32,730 nucleotides of DNA, taken from a virus. The stretch is taken from positions 1 through 32,730 of the IMG/VR virus record IMGVR_UViG_3300047354_000144; one strand, written 5' to 3'. The notes below the pieces were generated by a model. That model did no database searches. It saw only the letters and a list, made by a program, of their open reading frames with translations, and was not told the origin of the DNA. Below, one piece after another: positions 2,058-10,969 of the stretch; the first letter of the stretch is position 1; every line of letters starts with the position of its first letter. The position numbers and the translations under genes were made by a program.

Positions 2058-2439
2058 ACGACACCTGCGATGAACCTACTATAGCAGCTGGATCAGATGG
2101 TGTCAACCTGGAGAGGGGTGTTGACAGTTGGAAAACTGTCGCAACAGCAACGGCAATTCCTACAGTCACCCACCTAAATTTTTGAATTTCTCCTACCTTA
2201 TTTTCAACATCATCAATCTTTTGTTCAACTTTTGATAGAAGTTTCATTAAGGTATCATGAGTTCTATCACTTTCATCCAAGCGATTCTCATGACGCTCCA
2301 ACATAATAGCAACTCTATTACTATTCTCGGAGATTCTATCTACGGCGCGTTCTAACTTATCCAACATCTCCTTGGATAGGTCTTCATAAATATCTAATTT
2401 TGCTTCAAGAGTGTTTAGTTTTCCAAGACCAAAAGCCAC
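2014..2439 (-). CDS. Small coiled-coil protein with a membrane segment
   Basis: I do not recognise a function. The 141-residue product has a long charged helical region (about residues 10-90, heptad-like, rich in Leu, Glu, Lys and Arg) followed by a hydrophobic stretch from about 91 to 107 (WVTVGIAVAVATVFQL), then a short polar tail. This is the layout of small phage membrane-anchored coiled-coil proteins such as XhlA-type hemolysins, but that is only a resemblance. The start at 2439 shares a base with the stop of the upstream gene. Its last 44 bases overlap the primase start, and the primase promoter lies within its 3' end. Confidence 0.7.
   Translation of the reverse strand: MAFGLGKLNTLEAKLDIYEDLSKEMLDKLERAVDRISENSNRVAIMLERHENRLDESDRTHDTLMKLLSKVEQKIDDVENKVGEIQKFRWVTVGIAVAVATVFQLSTPLSRLTPSDPAAIVGSSQVSYELHRDQVRQPSVV
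2078..2106 (-). promoter_or_regulatory. Sigma70-type promoter for primase-nrdA
   Basis: On the minus strand TTGACA (2106-2101), a 17-base spacer and TATAGT (2083-2078) form an almost perfect host sigma70 promoter, with an extended -10 TG one base before the hexamer. Predicted transcription would start about 14 bases before the primase ATG. It lies inside the 3' end of the upstream gene. Confidence 0.75.
2123..2140. repeat. Perfect 7-bp inverted repeat upstream of the primase promoter
   Basis: GACAGTT, a 4-base loop (GGAA) and AACTGTC form a perfect inverted repeat, lying about 17-34 bases upstream of the -35 box at 2101-2106. There is no T-tract after it on the minus strand, so it is not an obvious terminator. 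It could be an operator or only an RNA hairpin within the upstream gene. Confidence 0.4.
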
Positions 2440-3266
2440 TAGTTATCTCCGCTACAGAAGGACAAGACACGGTTGAAAGAATCTTGAGATTCTGCACAGG
2501 CATTACTAAACTTTGATTGGTTTCTTTTTTGTGACAGGGAACCAAACCCCTGCATTACTTTACTAGCAACATCTGGAGTTACTTCAAACTCTTCTCCATT
2601 GAGAAACTTGATAGCACCAGCACATTTATTTTCAGCACACTGACTAATCTTAGCAAGATTACCAGAAGGTGTGAATGATTCAGTAGCAGACTTAGGTCCT
2701 GCACCACCAGAAGCAGCACGTTTCATAGATGCTACTTTAGTTGACAATGCTTTTTGCATTTCCTGCTTCTTAAGAGCGATCTTCTTTTTCTCAATCGCAA
2801 TCTTTTGCTGTACTTGCTTCGTTGCAAGTTGCTTTTTCATTTGAGCATCAGCTGGATCTGCTTCCTCAGGAATATTTCTCATAGCCTTCATTCTCTTGTC
2901 CATATAAAACTTAGCAGCTGCTCCAGGGAATACTCTTTCAATATCAACATCGCCCCTGTAACGAGGATTGATAAGAAGACGCATCTTCTGTCTCAATTCT
3001 GATGGGGAACTAGCATAGATGATAGTCTCACCGACCTCAGGGATCGTTACTTTATACTGCAACAGTCTGGAAACATTCTCCTTTACTGTCTTCTTATTCT
3101 TTTTCTGCTTACGATACTCACTAACATAAGGTTGATCTTTAATCTTAGAGAAGGCTTTCTTACGAAAATCTAATACAGGATCAAACCCAGCAACTGGTCC
3201 AGTAGCAGCAGAACTACCACTAAACCCGCCAGTACCAGCACTCATTGTAGGTGACTCGTTAATCAT
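2439..3266 (-). CDS. Lysine/alanine-rich protein of unknown function
   Basis: The 275-residue product starts with a Gly/Ser/Ala-rich segment (about 8-27), followed by a basic region with FRKKAFSKIKDQPYVSEY at 34-51. There is a segment around residues 69-105 that looks folded. A long Lys/Gln/Ala helical stretch (about 140-185, with repeated KKxxxKKQEMQK-type spacing) is probably a coiled coil. The C-terminus has several Cys (about 210-275). No enzymatic motif is seen. It sits in the late, virion-associated block, so a structural or assembly role is possible but is inferred from context only. Its start overlaps the stop of the 120-residue gene upstream by 4 bases. Confidence 0.75.
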   Translation of the reverse strand: MINESPTMSAGTGGFSGSSAATGPVAGFDPVLDFRKKAFSKIKDQPYVSEYRKQKKNKKTVKENVSRLLQYKVTIPEVGETIIYASSPSELRQKMRLLINPRYRGDVDIERVFPGAAAKFYMDKRMKAMRNIPEEADPADAQMKKQLATKQVQQKIAIEKKKIALKKQEMQKALSTKVASMKRAASGGAGPKSATESFTPSGNLAKISQCAENKCAGAIKFLNGEEFEVTPDVASKVMQGFGSLSQKRNQSKFSNACAESQDSFNRVLSFCSGDN

Positions 3267-3628: not shown

Positions 3629-4249
3629 TCAGCTACTAAAGGTCAGGGTTGCAGCGCCGTCAGAGATGACTTCTTCAGTACCACCTGCAGAGGTGATCTT
3701 GACACGGTACTTATAACCGTCAAGTGAATCATCACCGAGACTACTGTATGCCAGAGTCGCAGTAGTGAAGTCTGCATAGGTTACACCAGTGTCAGTGTCT
3801 GCTGCAATGTTAACCCAACGGGTAGTTGCTGCTGCAGTCTGACGCTGCCAGACATAAGCAAGAGCACCAGGTGTTCCTGTAGTAGAAGTGCTAAGGGTGA
3901 ATGTACCAGCGCCAGAGGAACTAGTAGATGCTGCAGGTTGTGCAGAGATGGTTACTGCCGATGCAACGTCTGCTGCAATCGTGTCATCTGCTTGTGACTC
4001 AGTGCCATCAGGGTTGCTGATGAAGGCAAGACACTCTGCCTTGTGACGAGTATTACCAGCGCCATCGGTGTAGGTCCTATATGCCCACCAACCAGGGCCA
4101 GTGATACCACGAGAAGCATTCTCGTTCAATGCTGCTTCAGCAGCGTCAATAAAAACAATAGTCTCGGTAGCAGAGCCACTGCCGTTACCACGGGCGAGTC
4201 CTGCTTGAGTCTTATTTGCGTTACTGTCAGTTCTCCCGTAAAGAGACAT
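3629..4249 (-). CDS. Virion structural protein with C-terminal Ig-like domain
   Basis: The 206-residue product has an N-terminal domain (1-90, starting MSLYGRTDSNANKTQAG) that resembles cyanophage virion proteins. A second domain (about 95-206) has Ig-like features: a Trp in the B-C region (ALAYVWQRQ, around 128-136), alternating Thr/Ser strands, and DDSLDGYKYRVKITSAGG, which fits the Asp-x-Gly-x-Tyr tyrosine corner of Ig folds. Ig-like domains are common on T4-type capsid and tail surfaces (for example Hoc). A perfect late promoter lies about 30 bases upstream and a terminator precedes it, so it is the first gene of a late transcript. The exact place in the virion cannot be read from the sequence. 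Confidence 0.8.
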   Translation of the reverse strand: MSLYGRTDSNANKTQAGLARGNGSGSATETIVFIDAAEAALNENASRGITGPGWWAYRTYTDGAGNTRHKAECLAFISNPDGTESQADDTIAADVASAVTISAQPAASTSSSGAGTFTLSTSTTGTPGALAYVWQRQTAAATTRWVNIAADTDTGVTYADFTTATLAYSSLGDDSLDGYKYRVKITSAGGTEEVISDGAATLTFSS

Positions 4250-4547: not shown

Positions 4548-5609
4548 TCAATCCGATTCGCCAGGTCTTGCTTTGTAAGGATTAGGTTTAGGTGCTCTCT
4601 TGCGTGAAAGATTACCCTTGATCTTATCAACAGGTGTTGGACCTTCGTAACCTTTCTTGCCCTTTTCTTTCTTCTTACCCTGAGGTTGAATCGCTTTCTT
4701 TCTGGAAGACATCAAACCCTGACCAGCAAGACTCTTACGAACCTTTGACATAGCAGATCCAGGTTTGATAGTACCACCCTTCTCGGATGGTTTACCAGTC
4801 TGAGGATCCTTACCAGTCTCTTTAGCATAACGTGTACGCTCATAGAGTTCAAACGCAGCATCAACAAGATTATCCTTAAGGTAATCCATTGATTCATTCT
4901 TTGCTTTCAGGTTTGCCTTACGCATTTGCAGTTCGGCACGACCACCTTTGTCCATTCTACCTTGTGCCTTTGGTTTCTTAGAACCACCAGCAGGTTGTGG
5001 ACCAGCACCACCGTCGTCAACTCTTCTACCATGAGAGTATTTTGCACCGCTACCTTTAGAGTCACCAGAGACCATCTTGCCGCCCTGTGAGCGACCGTCT
5101 TGATACTCTTTCTCAGACTGACCGTGCTTACCCTTATAGAGTTCGGCAAATGTCAAGAGTGTGTTTTCAGTTTCTGCGACTTCTTCTGTGCTTTCTTCTG
5201 AAACTTCTTCTTGACTGCCATACGCTTGGTCTCCTGTAGATTCAAAGTGAGGATTTTTTTGGGATGGAACTTTGTCCATCTCTTTACGAGCTTTCTCATT
5301 ATTCTTTTGACGCTTCTTGGGGTCCACCTCCAGATAAGAATCGTCTTTCTTTTTCGCTTCGCTCATGTCGGCACCTTCGCCATCTTCATCATGGTAGCCT
5401 GTGCCACCACAATGCTTGCATCCTTTGCCTTCGCACTTAGGACACATTTTACCTTTACCTGCAACTGATTTTTGTGCAGGTGTCTTGTCTTCACATTTAC
5501 ACTCTGCTTCACCTGTCTTATCGCAGCACTTTTCCATAAGATCATCCTTCTTAGGGTTGAGCTTAATCTTGGATTTCTTTTCCTCCAAGTATGCATTAAA
5601 GTTTAGCAT
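4548..5609 (-). CDS. Low-complexity protein with cysteine-rich zinc-binding segment and capsid-targeting-like N-terminus
   Basis: Translation is placed at the ATG at 5609, which overlaps the upstream stop (TGATG); the GTG one codon earlier is less likely. The product has 353 residues. Its first ten residues (MLNFNAYLEE) match the spacing of the T4 capsid-targeting sequence, MKTYQEFIAE in IPIII: aromatics at 4 and 7, then L-x-E at 8-10. Residues 28-40 hold four Cys, and about 56-69 form CPKCEGKGCKHCGGTG, half of a DnaJ-like zinc-finger repeat. The rest is Lys/Gly/Asp-rich, probably disordered, except for a helical segment around 238-260. It is probably virion-associated, perhaps an internal head protein; this is inference. 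Confidence 0.75.
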   Translation of the reverse strand: MLNFNAYLEEKKSKIKLNPKKDDLMEKCCDKTGEAECKCEDKTPAQKSVAGKGKMCPKCEGKGCKHCGGTGYHDEDGEGADMSEAKKKDDSYLEVDPKKRQKNNEKARKEMDKVPSQKNPHFESTGDQAYGSQEEVSEESTEEVAETENTLLTFAELYKGKHGQSEKEYQDGRSQGGKMVSGDSKGSGAKYSHGRRVDDGGAGPQPAGGSKKPKAQGRMDKGGRAELQMRKANLKAKNESMDYLKDNLVDAAFELYERTRYAKETGKDPQTGKPSEKGGTIKPGSAMSKVRKSLAGQGLMSSRKKAIQPQGKKKEKGKKGYEGPTPVDKIKGNLSRKRAPKPNPYKARPGESD

Positions 5610-7399
5610 CACTTTTGGTTCTCCTTGTTCAAGGTCTTAACGATCTTCTTAGAACGATCATATGCTTTTTGACGCTGGTCATCAGTCACAGAAGGACTTA
5701 CAACTTCACGACCTAGGTTACCTGCCTTACGGAACATTTTGTTCTTAGGCAAAGGCTTCTTCTCCTCTACGATGTTCTCAATCTCTTCAATAGTAAACAG
5801 TCCAGACTCATAGAGACTTGCAATCTCATCATACTCTTCACCGAGACGCTTGGCGAGTTTATCGCTACCCTTGGATACCAGACGTGATGTCTTACCAACT
5901 GCCTTCTTGACTCCCTTCTTAAGAAGTGAACCAACTTTTCTCAACGCACCACCAACGGCCTTACGTGTGCTACCACTCTCACTACTCCCGCCACCAGACG
6001 ATGATCCGCCACCGCCAGCACTACTAGAAGGTACTGTAGATCTTGTTACACCAGATGATTTCTTAGGTGCTTCTTTTGGTTCCTTAGGTTCTCTCTCCAT
6101 TGATGCAGACTTCTGCTTCTCTTTGGATGCAGAGAATTCACCAGCAACTTTACCAGCAGTCTGTACTGCCTTCTTACCAACCTTCTTAGCACCAGATTTA
6201 ATAGCACTACCTGCTTTCTTAGCAGCACTCTTCAGACGATCCATACGGGAAGGACCAGCAGAAGCAGGAGCAGAATCAGATTTTGCTGCTGCCTTCTTCA
6301 TGGATGCACCAGTGGATAGTCTATCCTTTGCCTGATCTCTACGACGTTGGATCTCCTTAGGATCCATTCTTTCGTCCAAGACTTCAACAGTCTCAAGATG
6401 CTCACAGATTTCAATCAAGTCTTGATCATCTTGTGCCATCTCAAGAATGATTTCTTCCATGACATCAATGAGTTGCTCATCAGTCAGTGCATCAATCTCT
6501 GCTCCAAGAGTTTCCAACTCAGCAAAGTCTGCTTCTGAGAATGCAAATGCTTCGTTCTTAGCACCAGACTTATGACGGACAGTTCCTTTCTCGTCAGTGT
6601 ATGTTTCTTTCTCTTTTCTAGCAGTTACATAACCCACACCAGGGACTACACCAGTTTTACCTGCTGCTCTTGCTGCGTTTCTGTCTGCTGCTCTTTGTGC
6701 TGCTCTCTTACGATTCTTATCGTAAGATGACATTGCCTCATCAAATTCAACCTCTTCTTTCTTGGTTAAGGCGTCTGCTCTTTTTGCTGCTTTGTTTCCA
6801 GTTCCACCATAATGCCTAGACTTAATTGGATTTTTAGCAGTTTTTCGGTTAGGTGGTGTTCCTCCGAGACCATCAACATTAGCACGACCAATATGCTGAA
6901 TATCTTTAACGTTTTGACCTTTACCTGATTTTGCTCTACCAGCAGCAGTGGTGCGAGCATCAAGCATAGATTTCAGTTTTGCTTTACCCTTTTCACTGGT
7001 GATTGCTTCACCAAGAACCTCAGCGTTCTTATCATAGTTGGCGAAGTGCTCGTGCTTCTCAGAAATCAGAATCTCAAGATCTTCAACAGGAACGTTCTCA
7101 TAGATGTACTCCTCATCTTCAATATCGTAATGAGTTACAGTACCATCTTCCAAGAGAGTATGTGCTTCGGGAATAACTGAGTACTCCTTACCTTCATACT
7201 TTACCTGTTTGGCGCAGTCATGACCCTTAGGTTTCTTTTTTCCGCCTTGCTCATCCTTGCCTTTGGCACCTGTGATGATATCAGCTTTAGTTACCTTGTC
7301 ATAAGGGACAGCATTATTGGCAAGATTGCCATCATTGTTTTTCTTTTCATAGACCTGCCGTAAGGCGTCGGTCATGTCTGGTAGTTCGTTGAGGTTCAT
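5609..7399 (-). CDS. Long basic low-complexity protein, probably virion-associated
   Basis: The 596-residue product has three parts. The N-terminal third includes the string LLEDGTVTHYDIEDEEY (82-98), shared in part with the nucleotidyltransferase upstream (DGTVTH). The middle is acidic and helical (about 285-345). The C-terminal half is rich in Lys, Ala and Ser with histone-H1-like spacing (KSAAKKAGSAIKSGAKKVGK), a Gly/Ser linker, another basic repeat, and finally an acidic helix and basic tail. No catalytic motif is visible. It starts 26 bases below a GATAAATA late-promoter-like motif and lies between two other virion-like genes. A DNA-binding internal head protein would fit, but this is unproven. 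Confidence 0.75.
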   Translation of the reverse strand: MNLNELPDMTDALRQVYEKKNNDGNLANNAVPYDKVTKADIITGAKGKDEQGGKKKPKGHDCAKQVKYEGKEYSVIPEAHTLLEDGTVTHYDIEDEEYIYENVPVEDLEILISEKHEHFANYDKNAEVLGEAITSEKGKAKLKSMLDARTTAAGRAKSGKGQNVKDIQHIGRANVDGLGGTPPNRKTAKNPIKSRHYGGTGNKAAKRADALTKKEEVEFDEAMSSYDKNRKRAAQRAADRNAARAAGKTGVVPGVGYVTARKEKETYTDEKGTVRHKSGAKNEAFAFSEADFAELETLGAEIDALTDEQLIDVMEEIILEMAQDDQDLIEICEHLETVEVLDERMDPKEIQRRRDQAKDRLSTGASMKKAAAKSDSAPASAGPSRMDRLKSAAKKAGSAIKSGAKKVGKKAVQTAGKVAGEFSASKEKQKSASMEREPKEPKEAPKKSSGVTRSTVPSSSAGGGGSSSGGGSSESGSTRKAVGGALRKVGSLLKKGVKKAVGKTSRLVSKGSDKLAKRLGEEYDEIASLYESGLFTIEEIENIVEEKKPLPKNKMFRKAGNLGREVVSPSVTDDQRQKAYDRSKKIVKTLNKENQK

Positions 7400-8565
7400 G
7401 TCTTGGCAGCGACCTTATTTCTTTTATTTATCTTTTGTATGAATTGTCCAGGTGTCATTTTGACAACTGACTGAGATAGTTCACTTGTTCCTATTAGTCC
7501 TTGAGGAGTAAAATCAAACCCATGAATATCATTTTTCTCGGTGAGATCTTTCAACCATCCTCTATAGACAGTATCATGCTCATCAATATATATGACATAA
7601 TTAGCACCACGGTTTACAACCTTACCGATAATTCCTGTATTTACATTCTCAATGAATGATCCTACGGGGAAAGCATTACTATTATAGTAGTGTTCTCTGA
7701 GAGATTTCTCATCTAATTTAGGTGCAATCTCATGTAAAACATAAGATGCATCTGCAAAATCCTCAAAGGATTCCATTTGCATGGAAGATCTAACTTCATT
7801 AAAGAGTTCTTTTGTTTCTTTATCAGTTAGTTCTTCAGGAATACCAGAACGGAAAGTAGCAAAGTCATTGTCTGCTGCTGCTTTACGCATCTTAGATGCA
7901 GACATACCATCTACACCATCAGAATCTGGATCTCTATCACCAGCAGATACTACATTGATCTCTTCAAACTCATACAGTTTACCATTATATTTATTGGCAA
8001 GGTTATCAAACTCAGCAACACGATCACCACCAACTACAATATTAACTTCACTATATCCTTCACTATATAAACCTTTTAGCACATCAAAGATAGTCTTATA
8101 CTCTTCATTATTAGTGATGGCATGGGCATGATCAGGATACATCTGACGCATGTAATGCACCTTAGTCTCAGGATCAATAGGATTCTTTTTAGGATCTTGA
8201 GACCTTGATGGATATACTTTATACTCACCACCCTTAGCAGATTGTGCTACACGATCAATGAGTTTTTGATGACCGATAGTAGGTGGATTGAATCTTCCAA
8301 AAGTAATAGACACCGCACCTTTTCCGCCCTCACCTTCGCCTTCTGTAGACTGGGGTTCTGATTCTTGTGCTGGTGGTTGCCCATTCTTAGCTGCCTGCTG
8401 ATCCTTAGAAAGTTCTACCAACTTACCGTTAAGAGATCGGTGAGTTACAGTACCATCGGCAAGACCGTAGTAACCATAACCAACATGCTCTAGTCCTCTC
8501 TTTTGTGCTTCATCCGACGCTCGTGACTTTGCTGCTTCGGATAAGAAGTCGCTAAACTTTTTCAT
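7396..8565 (-). CDS. Nucleotidyltransferase (NMNAT/cytidylyltransferase-like) with capsid-targeting-like N-terminus
   Basis: The catalytic domain spans about residues 84-245. GRFNPPTIGH (90-99) is the (H/T)xGH nucleotide-binding signature; VVGGDRVAEF (177-186) and MSASKMRKA (221-229, equivalent to the ISxTxxR motif) complete the adenylyl/cytidylyltransferase pattern. Members transfer AMP or CMP, and NMN adenylyltransferase is one plausible activity. Residues 1-11 (MKKFSDFLSEA) match the T4 capsid-targeting sequence, with a gp21-type cleavage site L-S-E. DGTVTH at 37-42 recurs in the next gene downstream. A C-terminal domain (about 293-340, FPVGSFIENVNTGIIG) looks like a small beta-barrel. The gene overlaps its neighbours by 4 bases on both sides. 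The substrate is not determined by the sequence. Confidence 0.85.
   Translation of the reverse strand: MKKFSDFLSEAAKSRASDEAQKRGLEHVGYGYYGLADGTVTHRSLNGKLVELSKDQQAAKNGQPPAQESEPQSTEGEGEGGKGAVSITFGRFNPPTIGHQKLIDRVAQSAKGGEYKVYPSRSQDPKKNPIDPETKVHYMRQMYPDHAHAITNNEEYKTIFDVLKGLYSEGYSEVNIVVGGDRVAEFDNLANKYNGKLYEFEEINVVSAGDRDPDSDGVDGMSASKMRKAAADNDFATFRSGIPEELTDKETKELFNEVRSSMQMESFEDFADASYVLHEIAPKLDEKSLREHYYNSNAFPVGSFIENVNTGIIGKVVNRGANYVIYIDEHDTVYRGWLKDLTEKNDIHGFDFTPQGLIGTSELSQSVVKMTPGQFIQKINKRNKVAAKT
7425..7432 (-). promoter_or_regulatory. Late-promoter-like motif (GATAAATA)
   Basis: The minus strand reads GATAAATA, one base from the T4 late consensus TATAAATA, 26 bases upstream of the ATG of the 596-residue gene. 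It lies inside the 3' end of the upstream gene, so part of the match could be chance. Confidence 0.45.
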
Positions 8566-9503
8566 TTATTCCAATTCTTATTTGAGTTAAAGTTTGCCTG
8601 ACTGAATTCCAAACGATTGACCAATTTCACAGAGTGCTTACCAGTAAGAACAAACCCCTCATGATTGATTGGTTGACCTTCAATGTAACATTCTACGGGC
8701 TCATCTGCTACGCCACAGGAGAGCAGGATATCTTTTAATTTCAGGATAATATGATATAAACGGAAAGTCATGGTATTAACTTCCTGCTTATATTTATCGT
8801 CCAAAGTATTGTACAATTCTGAGGCACTAGGAATATAACCAGCACGAACAAATTTGTTGACATGCTTCTTGATGTGCATGGAACAAGTAGCACTAGTAGA
8901 AGTATCGCCCTTAGGAAATTTACAGAAAGGAATCAGAAGTTTTGCTGCCTGAGACAATAGACGAGCACGCTTAGGAACTACCAACGATGCTTTGTGTCTT
9001 AGGAAGCGATACTTATTGTTATGGATAGGTGTTCCAGGAACAACCACATGATCAAGAGGATACTGTTGTGCTGTTGGAGATATCTCTTTGTACAGAGTAT
9101 GAGGAGCAACAATTACATCCTGATTCATAATCTCTGGGAAGAGATACAGTACTGTATTAGGTTTGTAGTAAAGGTTTCCACCAAACCCAATGAAGTCTGC
9201 TTGATAAATTCCACGACATGTACGAGGAAGTGCATAGAAACATGCAGTTAGTATCTGAGCAACGTTACCTGTGTGGTTCTTGACAATATCAGAAACACTA
9301 TAATTGATTAGGACTTTCTTCTTATTGAATACACTCTTAGTGCCAACAAACCACTTACCTTCATTGTATCCAAACACAATGGCAGGAGCACCGTCCCACT
9401 TAGTAGTGACCTTATCAAAATTCACCATAGAATCCAAGACATCATAAGGGTTCACCCCGTTGAGGATGTTGTCTTCTGGATGCTCTAGGTGTTTGTTGGG
9501 CAT
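8562..9503 (-). CDS. Polynucleotide ligase/nucleotidyltransferase-like protein (KxDG)
   Basis: I place the start at the ATG at 9503 (313 residues, GAGAG upstream). The longer frame reaching 9575 would begin inside the hairpin at 9533-9566 and before the likely promoter. Residues 35-38 are K-W-D-G, the adenylation motif I of the DNA/RNA ligase superfamily. QADFIGF (101-107) could be motif III, EGFVL (282-286) fits motif IV, and the Lys of VKLV (292-295) fits motif V. The order is right, but the gap to motif IV is long. This suggests an ATP- or NAD-dependent ligase or other lysyl-AMP enzyme; the substrate is unknown. It overlaps the nucleotidyltransferase gene by 4 bases. Confidence 0.75.
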   Translation of the reverse strand: MPNKHLEHPEDNILNGVNPYDVLDSMVNFDKVTTKWDGAPAIVFGYNEGKWFVGTKSVFNKKKVLINYSVSDIVKNHTGNVAQILTACFYALPRTCRGIYQADFIGFGGNLYYKPNTVLYLFPEIMNQDVIVAPHTLYKEISPTAQQYPLDHVVVPGTPIHNNKYRFLRHKASLVVPKRARLLSQAAKLLIPFCKFPKGDTSTSATCSMHIKKHVNKFVRAGYIPSASELYNTLDDKYKQEVNTMTFRLYHIILKLKDILLSCGVADEPVECYIEGQPINHEGFVLTGKHSVKLVNRLEFSQANFNSNKNWNK

Positions 9504-9526
9504 AGAACTCTCGTCTTTACCCTTAT

Positions 9527-9555
9527 AGTATAGCACGGGAAACCCCCTGTGACAG
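9527..9555 (-). promoter_or_regulatory. Possible sigma70-type promoter overlapping a hairpin
   Basis: On the minus strand TATACT (9532-9527), preceded by TGC (extended -10), lies 17 bases after CTGTCA (9555-9550), a 4-of-6 match to the -35 consensus. The -35 box is within the loop side of the hairpin at 9533-9566. It would start a transcript just before the ligase-like gene. Confidence 0.45.
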
Positions 9556-9566
9556 GGGGCTTGTGC
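9533..9566 (-). terminator. GC-rich hairpin, probable terminator
   Basis: CCCCCTG and CAGGGGG pair across a 3-base loop, with an outer GCAC/GTGC pairing. It begins 6 bases after the stop of the 465-residue gene, as a terminator would, but the following U-tract is only three bases, so termination may be weak or the hairpin may protect the 3' end. Confidence 0.6.
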
Positions 9567-9571
9567 CACTT

Positions 9572-10969
9572 TCAATACAGTTTGCCGAACGGTCCAAAGC
9601 GTTTGCCCTTCTTGGCAGCGATGAATACCATATCAGTCATAAACTCATCTTTTTTCTTCTTTGGCATTGTTACCACAGCGTGAATAAACTTCATGCCCAT
9701 CAGTTTACTAGTTGCAGCGTGAGGTTTAGTCAGGAAAACTGCACTTATATTACCCAGTGCAGTATCAGCATTACTTTCTCCCATCTCAACACCCTTACTC
9801 TTCAGTTTGTTGTATATTTTTTTATAGTCATCAAACTCTTTACTAAACTCTGCTGAGGTTTTGGGATACTTTTTATGATCATTTTCAAAATCAACCTTAG
9901 CATCTTTCAATAGCATCCCAACCATAGCAACTGGTGCCTTACCCATACGGGCAGATGATGCACCCTTCTCTGTAGGTTCAAACTTCAGGTTTGATACCTT
10001 ACTAGTATCATTGCCCTGAATCTGGAAATTATAAACAGCGTTATTGCCCTCTACGATTGCACGAACAGCAAGAGATTGAAACTCCCCTTCACCCTTCAAA
10101 GAAAGATCACACTGAAACTCTTTAGTTTCATAGTTATATGTGTCAGTAAGACCAAGATCATCTACATTATACTTCTGCCACTTTGCAGTCTTACCACTAA
10201 TCTTTTTGAGAGATACACCAACAACCTTCTCCTCATTAAACAACTTCCTAAGAACGGCATTCAATTCTAGAATAGTTTGAGAACCATTACCATCTACAGT
10301 CTCTTCAATAAGTGCTTTGACTGATCGTTCGTTCTGAATCAACCAGATGTCTGCAGGGTTCCAATTATCTTTCTGTGATATACCAAATTTTTCTTTGATT
10401 AGGTTACTAATGTAACCCATGAATCCACCTTCCCTATTGAATTCATCAAACTTAGATGATGAGTATACCTCCAACATCTTCTTTTGTTGAGCATAGTATC
10501 CTTGAATCCACTCGTCACTGATACCAGGATATATTGCTTCCAACTCAGAATACTTTGGATCCTGCATGATGTCCTGCCACTTAGAATACTTTACATTATC
10601 CTGAAGTGCTCTTCTAAAAATCCAGGCAGATCCTAACTCCTGCATTCTAGTTGTCTTTGCATCTGCCGCACCACTACCTGCAGACTTCTTAGCAGATGCA
10701 ATAAATTTTAGTCTATATCCTGCCGCTTCTGTTACGAATCCTTTTGGACCTATCTTCTCTCCAAAGTTGAGAGCGATTGCTTCCATCTCATCTTGATTTA
10801 CTTTGAAACCCCATTGCTTACTTTTAGATCCAGTCCACATAGCGTCTGCATAGATTCCCATTTTACCTCTAGGAAGAGAAGCCAGCATTGCAGTGATGGT
10901 GGGTTTTAAATCTTTAGGTGCTTTCTTCTTTATACCCGCCTTGTCATTTAAGTTGTAAGAGGTTGCCAT
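9572..10969 (-). CDS. Unknown 465-residue protein of the late block
   Basis: I do not recognise a family. The product is soluble-looking, with charged helices. Visible landmarks are LPRGKMGIYADAMWTGSK (32-49), an Ala/Gly/Ser-rich bend near 93-105, KDNWNPADIWLIQNERSVK (200-218), a beta-rich region (about 250-330, including YNVDDLGLTDTYNYETKEF), and a Lys-rich C-terminus (PKKKKDEF and AAKKGKRFGPFGKLY). No membrane segment or signal peptide is present. A CTAAATA late-type motif lies 24 bases upstream, and a hairpin follows the stop, so it may be a single-gene late unit. It could be a virion or accessory protein; nothing in the sequence decides this. Confidence 0.7.
   Translation of the reverse strand: MATSYNLNDKAGIKKKAPKDLKPTITAMLASLPRGKMGIYADAMWTGSKSKQWGFKVNQDEMEAIALNFGEKIGPKGFVTEAAGYRLKFIASAKKSAGSGAADAKTTRMQELGSAWIFRRALQDNVKYSKWQDIMQDPKYSELEAIYPGISDEWIQGYYAQQKKMLEVYSSSKFDEFNREGGFMGYISNLIKEKFGISQKDNWNPADIWLIQNERSVKALIEETVDGNGSQTILELNAVLRKLFNEEKVVGVSLKKISGKTAKWQKYNVDDLGLTDTYNYETKEFQCDLSLKGEGEFQSLAVRAIVEGNNAVYNFQIQGNDTSKVSNLKFEPTEKGASSARMGKAPVAMVGMLLKDAKVDFENDHKKYPKTSAEFSKEFDDYKKIYNKLKSKGVEMGESNADTALGNISAVFLTKPHAATSKLMGMKFIHAVVTMPKKKKDEFMTDMVFIAAKKGKRFGPFGKLY

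Follow-up and report, generated by a model that had tools for sequence, protein, structure and literature searches.

The first ten residues of a nucleotidyltransferase (NTase) encoded in a 32,730-nucleotide stretch of phage DNA (the window; IMG/VR record IMGVR_UViG_3300047354_000144), and very probably those of a neighbouring protein, p3, appear to form a capsid-targeting sequence (CTS) of the phage T4 type, through which the precursors would dock to the core, be cut by a gp21-type protease and be kept in the head as mature proteins; we put the probability of this reading at roughly 80%. The NTase (389 aa; 7396..8565, minus strand; phrog_395, PF01467 fold) is an orthologue of the T4-GC190 'cytidyltransferase' and starts MKKFSDFLSEAAK, and p3 (353 aa; 4548..5609, minus strand; phrog_1418, pI 9.3) is a basic cysteine-containing protein that starts MLNFNAYLEEKKSK. 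Their putative leaders, MKKFSDFLSE|A (8536..8565, minus strand; predicted cut before Ala11) and MLNFNAYLEE|K (5580..5609, minus strand; predicted cut before Lys11), are both shaped like the CTS of T4 IPIII, which, like IPII, starts MKTYQEFIAEA in the T4 record and corresponds to them in the aromatic residues 4 and 7, Leu or Ile at 8 and Glu10. A preliminary description of this DNA had drawn this parallel, and both open reading frames, both N-termini and the likeness to IPIII proved correct. Two components of our reading are already known, namely the T4 packaging signal of IPI, IPII and IPIII (Mullaney and Black 1996, as reviewed in PMC9026906) and NMNAT-like proteins in virions; what appears to be new is the joining of them.

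The window is, by its sequence, a piece of Synechococcus phage ACG-2014d or of a near-identical phage; a sequence search found 48 ACG-2014d records that match the NTase at 100% identity over 389 aa. Between the gp41 helicase and gp61 primase genes lies a cluster encoding a 465-aa phrog_1462 protein (9572..10969, minus strand), for which virion protein 90 of S-SCSM1 is a weak match (27%, E 1e-4); a DUF6267 protein (8562..9575, minus strand), whose gene overlaps that of the NTase by 4 nt; the NTase; p2 (5609..7399, minus strand; basic, 596 aa, phrog_764 by PHROG match); p3; a 65-aa protein; a phrog_613 'head protein' (3629..4249, minus strand), whose orthologue was detected by mass spectrometry (MS) in S-SZBM1 virions; a DUF7207 protein; and a phrog_696 protein (2439..3266, minus strand). 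The N-terminus of p2, the third gene within 4548-8565, is unlike the NTase and p3 leaders. Behind its leader, the NTase contains a mini-domain (residues 12-55, GYGYYG...THRS...GKL; 8401..8532, minus strand; alignment and phrog_3561 match), a catalytic domain with GRFNPPTIGH and SASKMR motifs (residues 85-250; 7816..8313, minus strand; Pfam, AF2 model and structure search) and a small C-terminal beta domain (residues 283-345; 7531..7719, minus strand), which forms a separate 91-aa gene starting MKDFREIKNKA and MKNFKRLREEA (S-PM2, S-CAM3), named NrdB-like there. PHROG 455 covers DUF6267 plus the NTase, so that the leader would be internal in some records; p2, p3 and the NTase tail have pieces in common with the mosaic PHROGs 11470 and 22379.

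Counted at one fixed offset within protein sequences, the motif (an aromatic residue at 4, an aromatic one or Leu at 7, a hydrophobic one at 8 and Glu10) had a frequency per position of about 6e-4 to 1e-3, so that only about 0.03-0.05 leaders are expected among the genes of the window; the leaders at the NTase and p3 starts exceed chance. The pattern start-xx-F-xx-[FY]-[LIVMF]-x-E was found at exactly two places in a complete relative (an IMG/VR record of 179,110 bases), the NTase start and the p3 start, and a reversed control pattern gave 1 match per strand. The form F-x-x-F-[LI]-x-E-A occurred once in the window and once in S-SM1, each time where the NTase begins; T4 has two matches, of which one is the gp23 processing site AFGSFLTE|A. 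When all T4 starts were scanned with the strict form, the annotated genes matched included those for IPII and IPIII and gene 61.1 (MKTFKEFIKED), and IPI (MKTFKEFTSTT) and Alt (MELITELFDE) were missed, so that the motif is specific yet incompletely sensitive.

NTases were gathered from 38 IMG/VR loci and from diverse phage records, and the set used to measure conservation held 24 non-redundant sequences (<85% identity), none of them picked by its leader. Phe4 was present in 23/24, Phe7 in 22/24, Leu or Ile at position 8 in 24/24, Glu10 in 23/23 and Ala11 in 22/23, with positions 3, 5, 6 and 9 variable (entropy 1.2-2.3 bits) and a mean entropy of 2.3 bits in the linker formed by residues 56-84. 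The conserved positions are those to which mutants of the IPIII leader assign a role, residues 4 and 7 in targeting and residues 8 and 10 in processing (PMC9026906). Among close orthologues, codon changes at Phe7, Glu10 and Ala11 were all silent, positions 2-4 being too invariant to inform. The leader, or a leader-like start, is kept where the module of residues 12-55 is absent, in S-WAM1, S-SZBM1, S-CREM2 and Melnitz-3, with starts such as MRFRQFIIEA (S-SZBM1), MKNFSSFLTEA (S-CREM2) and MKKFSEIIEA. Free variation of the first 15 residues among homologues, which the preliminary description had set against its own proposal, was not seen in the main lineages, but two lineages have lost the leader: the S-CAM3 NTase begins at the catalytic domain, and that of S-PM2 is the rear part of a fusion whose front is the C-terminal half of DUF6267. 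The S-CAM9 NTase has a distorted leader. A candidate internal fused leader in S-MbCM6 was rejected; the separate NTase gene of this phage starts MKKFSAFLSEA.

Relatives of the NTase (32-59% identity) have been detected by MS in four published virion proteomes, and its association with virions is therefore already known. According to these publications, the proteins detected were T4-GC190, a putative cytidylyltransferase, in S-SM1 virions (Sullivan et al. 2010, PMC3037559); an NMNAT together with the products of the cluster genes 89, 90, 92, 93, 95 and 97 in S-SCSM1 (PMC9602691 and its record); a cytidylyltransferase, the 457-aa product of the adjacent gene and the orthologue of the phrog_613 protein in S-SZBM1 (PMC9146016, Table 1); and ORFs 154 (the NTase), 155, 156 and 160 in S-CREM2 (PMC10665884, Table 3). 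T4-GC190 is SSM1_190, 59% identical to the NTase of the window, and starts MKKFSAFLNEA; the other detected NTases start MKSFLQFLKEA (S-SCSM1), MRFRQFIIEA (S-SZBM1) and MKNFSSFLTEA (S-CREM2). The same publications report few NTase peptides (2 in S-SZBM1, PMC9146016; 3 in S-CREM2, PMC10665884), and the leaderless S-PM2 NTase is given as undetected in the S-PM2 virion, where several known structural proteins were missed too (PMC3037559). The gene at the position of p2, whose product resembles p2 barely or not at all in sequence, was MS-detected in S-SZBM1, S-SCSM1 and S-CREM2. Virion mass spectrometry, by which the preliminary description proposed to look for the two proteins, has thus in effect been run on relatives, finding the NTase orthologue in all four and, in S-SCSM1, two proteins (89 and 92) that share segments with p3. 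That the leader supplies the mechanism of the published NTase association is strongly supported by sequence comparison, the virion MS coming from relatives. The papers describe members of the same orthologous family in purified virions and propose no targeting signal in their accessible portions; the virion data are theirs, whereas ACG-2014d is known from sequence. No report joining a targeting signal with virion NMNAT-like proteins was found in the literature searched, outside which most subscription journals lie.

If the leader is a packaging tag, further enzymes of cyanophage virions should bear it. The SAM hydrolase of the S-CREM2 virion starts MKDFDSFLEE (a cut would leave the predicted new N-terminal peptide FDRDQESLEESSLSR), the APH-like virion kinase of this phage has VKRFDAFLTEE followed by an NTase-type mini-domain, its Cas9-like virion protein has LRFASFMAEA at residues 17-26, and the virion-detected kinase of S-CRM01 begins MISFDQFLSEKK. 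A genome-wide pattern search of S-CREM2 found leader-type annotated starts at ORF6 (the SAM hydrolase), ORF14 (the kinase), ORF136 and ORF154 (the NTase), 4/4 of which are MS-detected. Over the four phages with proteomes, 6/9 leader-type genes were MS-detected, the rate for genes as a whole being about 18% (p about 0.0015, gene totals being approximate); with the NTases removed the count is 3/6 (p about 0.07). The undetected genes, two in S-SZBM1 and one in S-SCSM1, encode proteins of 105-165 aa near terL. The NTase-type mini-domain (8401-8532) recurs in virion proteins, directly behind the leader in the S-CREM2 kinase, within the kinase of S-CRM01 and, near the leader, in the Cas9-like protein, and is perhaps a second packaging or scaffold module.

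Packaging of p3 through a CTS-type leader is moderately supported by sequence, its match to virion proteins being segment-wise: residues 156-257 align with S-SCSM1_89 at 60% identity and residues 253-345 with S-SCSM1_92 at 56%, both of them S-SCSM1 virion proteins. The leader of p3 (for which a GTG start one codon upstream is also possible) has aromatic residues at 4 and 7, Leu8 and Glu10 in the window, in two further loci (L008 and L009) and in P-SSM4. Its orthologues keep ML.F and LxE-K, but the aromatic residue 7 is absent from many of them, and a leader shortened by one residue, which lacks the second aromatic and retains LxE-[KR], is present in S-SM1, S-RIM8, L018, L068, L091 and L165; residues beyond the leader are conserved as well. 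The form ML[NS]FxxYLxE also heads proteins unrelated to p3. The packaging proposed in the preliminary description thus fared differently for its two proteins, being strongly supported for the NTase, by conservation matching the IPIII mutants and by MS in four cyanophages, and moderately for p3, by leader shape, virion homologues and the leader on unrelated proteins; its term 'cysteine-rich' holds for residues 28-67 of p3, which contain 8 Cys and two CxxC motifs.

A scan of IMG/VR DNA for M-K-x-F-x-x-F-[LIVMF]-x-E-A found at least 120 stretches; 120 of the 125 matches listed start ORFs of at least 60 aa, and a fixed-codon version of the leader pattern gave 46 matches, versus 0 for a composition-matched control. 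Among the matches listed, NTases make up 53/120, and the other cargo includes DUF6267, lytic transglycosylase, glucosaminidase, GNAT, DUF5661, DUF6321 and DUF192 proteins and many proteins without assigned function. The p3-type leader likewise heads P-loop kinase-like, Nudix-like and phosphatase-like proteins (named by eye from motifs) and DUF6267 proteins; DUF6267 is found both with and without a leader before its common HLEHLED start, which looks like a natural transplant. We lean towards reading M-[KL]-x-F-x-x-[FY]-[LI]-x-E as a portable address with which T4-like phages of aquatic bacteria would fill their heads with a large repertoire of effectors, most of them undescribed, and with the same modest preference we would count among these adenylyltransferases, kinases, SAM hydrolase, Cas9-like, Nudix-like, GNAT, ADP-ribosyltransferase-like, phosphatase-like and lytic proteins. 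If so, one could tell what a phage injects by looking at residues 1-11 of each protein it encodes. Five p3-type DNA-pattern matches (322 aa, with 148 codons open upstream) were discarded as internal methionines. Several small leader proteins (L184, L186, L190, L223, L226, L086 and L122) share an HxT....I..SGF...GxYGPGVYTS-like pattern and look by eye ADP-ribosyltransferase-like, reminiscent of the packaged T4 Alt; a Pfam scan of L086 and L122 gave no match.

The preliminary description had further proposed an NMNAT role for the NTase, and nothing we found supports this beyond the level of the fold. PF01467 matches at 25.4 bits against a cut-off of 21, and the catalytic domain retains FGRFNPPTxGH and SASKMR. 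The AF2 model, built with alignment rows from the window and IMG/VR only, has a pLDDT of 75 (about 90 in the core); in a structure search it matched NadD (NaMN adenylyltransferase) and PPAT (CoaD) with similar scores, and archaeal NMNAT as well. With these enzymes the NTase has in common the fold, (T/H)xGH and an SxSxxR-like motif, but identity is 13-18%, and the NTase adds the leader, the mini-domain and the C-terminal beta domain. A sequence search of the PDB with the NTase alone gave nothing useful, and a profile search gave weak archaeal matches only. An NAD+ role is hypothesized by the S-SCSM1 (PMC9602691) and S-CREM2 (PMC10665884) authors too. A packaged NMN adenylyltransferase that maintains NAD+ against NAD-depleting defences seems to us unlikely: it accords with the matches to NadD and archaeal NMNAT, with weak NCBIfam matches to the NadD and NadR models and with the NMNAT annotation of the S-SCSM1 virion orthologue, but PPAT structures match equally, the NCBIfam scores lie far below their cut-offs (TIGR00482, 19.2 bits versus 112; TIGR01526, 16.5 versus 341), and Nampt (PF04095), sought in ACG-2014d, S-SCSM1 and S-SM1, was not found, so that NMN would need to be supplied by the host. 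For these reasons we keep the label adenylyltransferase-like; an NMNAT-, PPAT- or other HxGH-type reaction would fit.

Under the CTS reading, Phe4 and Phe7 would dock the precursor to the prohead core late in infection, a gp21-type prohead protease would cut after Glu10, at an L/I-x-E|A site as in gp23, and the mature enzyme would stay in the head among the DNA, with which it could leave; injection is suggested by analogy to the T4 IPs and Alt. The complete relative encodes both a gp21-type prohead protease (79% identical to S-SM1 gp21) and gp23 (84%), with the processing site MLTE|A, and the review suggests that this packaging signal may be of general use in T4-like phages (PMC9026906). As in the T4 IPs, the leader stands at residue 1 with aromatics at 4 and 7, Leu or Ile at 8, Glu10 and Ala11, beside basic partner proteins and a gp21-type protease; unlike them, the proteins carrying it are an enzyme of 389 aa and a basic protein that contains cysteines rather than a small IP, the p3 variant has Lys11, and cleavage is predicted. 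The T4 ADP-ribosyltransferase Alt is likewise an enzyme that uses a nucleotide; it travels in the head, is injected and has an N-terminal propeptide cut by gp21, but its leader lacks the aromatic residue 4 and its fold is another. The leader might instead dock proteins to the scaffold for head assembly or genome packaging, as parts of the core or as DNA-condensing basic proteins, with delivery to the host incidental. The basic character of p2, p3, the 465-aa protein and the phrog_696 protein (pI 9.2-9.8), the many cluster genes whose products are S-SCSM1 virion proteins and the slowing of T4 head assembly by loss of IPIII (PMC9026906) would agree with such a role, which we nevertheless find improbable, since the NTase is acidic (pI 5.4) and the leader cargo has enzymes better suited to the infected cell, such as the SAM hydrolase, kinase, Nudix-like and GNAT proteins. 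That the N-terminus is a mere conserved enzyme helix (residues 4-12 are modelled as one by AF2) and virion detection a contamination (in two proteome papers, highly expressed enzymes are said to possibly co-purify with virions) is very improbable, given that the same 11 residues precede unrelated domains and the motif is carried by T4 IPII and IPIII, that the variable sites coincide exactly with the x positions, and that four independent proteomes detect the NTase.

Enzymes in cyanophage virions have been puzzling, with contamination a standing doubt, and a short leader would explain the presence there of the NTase, the SAM hydrolase, the kinase and the Cas9-like protein. It predicts more cargo in phages that still lack a virion analysis, offers a direct route to the effectors of the first minutes of infection, and would tie the abundant marine T4-like phages to the best-studied phage packaging signal, that of coliphage T4.

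Several other features of the cluster were observed. The phrog_696 protein (2439-3266, minus strand) begins MINE-SPTMSAGTGGFSGSSAATGPVAGFDPVL. In the relative, gp23 has MLTE-APTMAAGTGGFSGGSTATGPVAGFDPVL as its processing site and N-terminal arm, and 26/32 positions agree between the two; the phrog_696 protein may be a basic virion protein bearing a duplicate of the capsid arm, and the same motif is present in virion proteins S-SCSM1 97 and S-CREM2 160. The DUF6267 protein (8562-9575, minus strand), recognized by Pfam, has invariant KxDG and EG motifs (KWDG and EGFV in the window), and its model (pLDDT 88) gave mostly ligase matches, all weak (best E 0.066). It has the look of a covalent nucleotidyltransferase, a divergent one, from the ligase superfamily; in several other phages it bears the packaging leader. 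A 'cytidyltransferase' name is attached to p2 in PHROG 764 and some records, and a domain search of p2 found no such domain. T4 gene 61.1 (L055:18966-19130), which starts MKTFKEFIKEDMVAG and is CTS-like, lies between genes 41 and 61, as does the cyanophage cluster.
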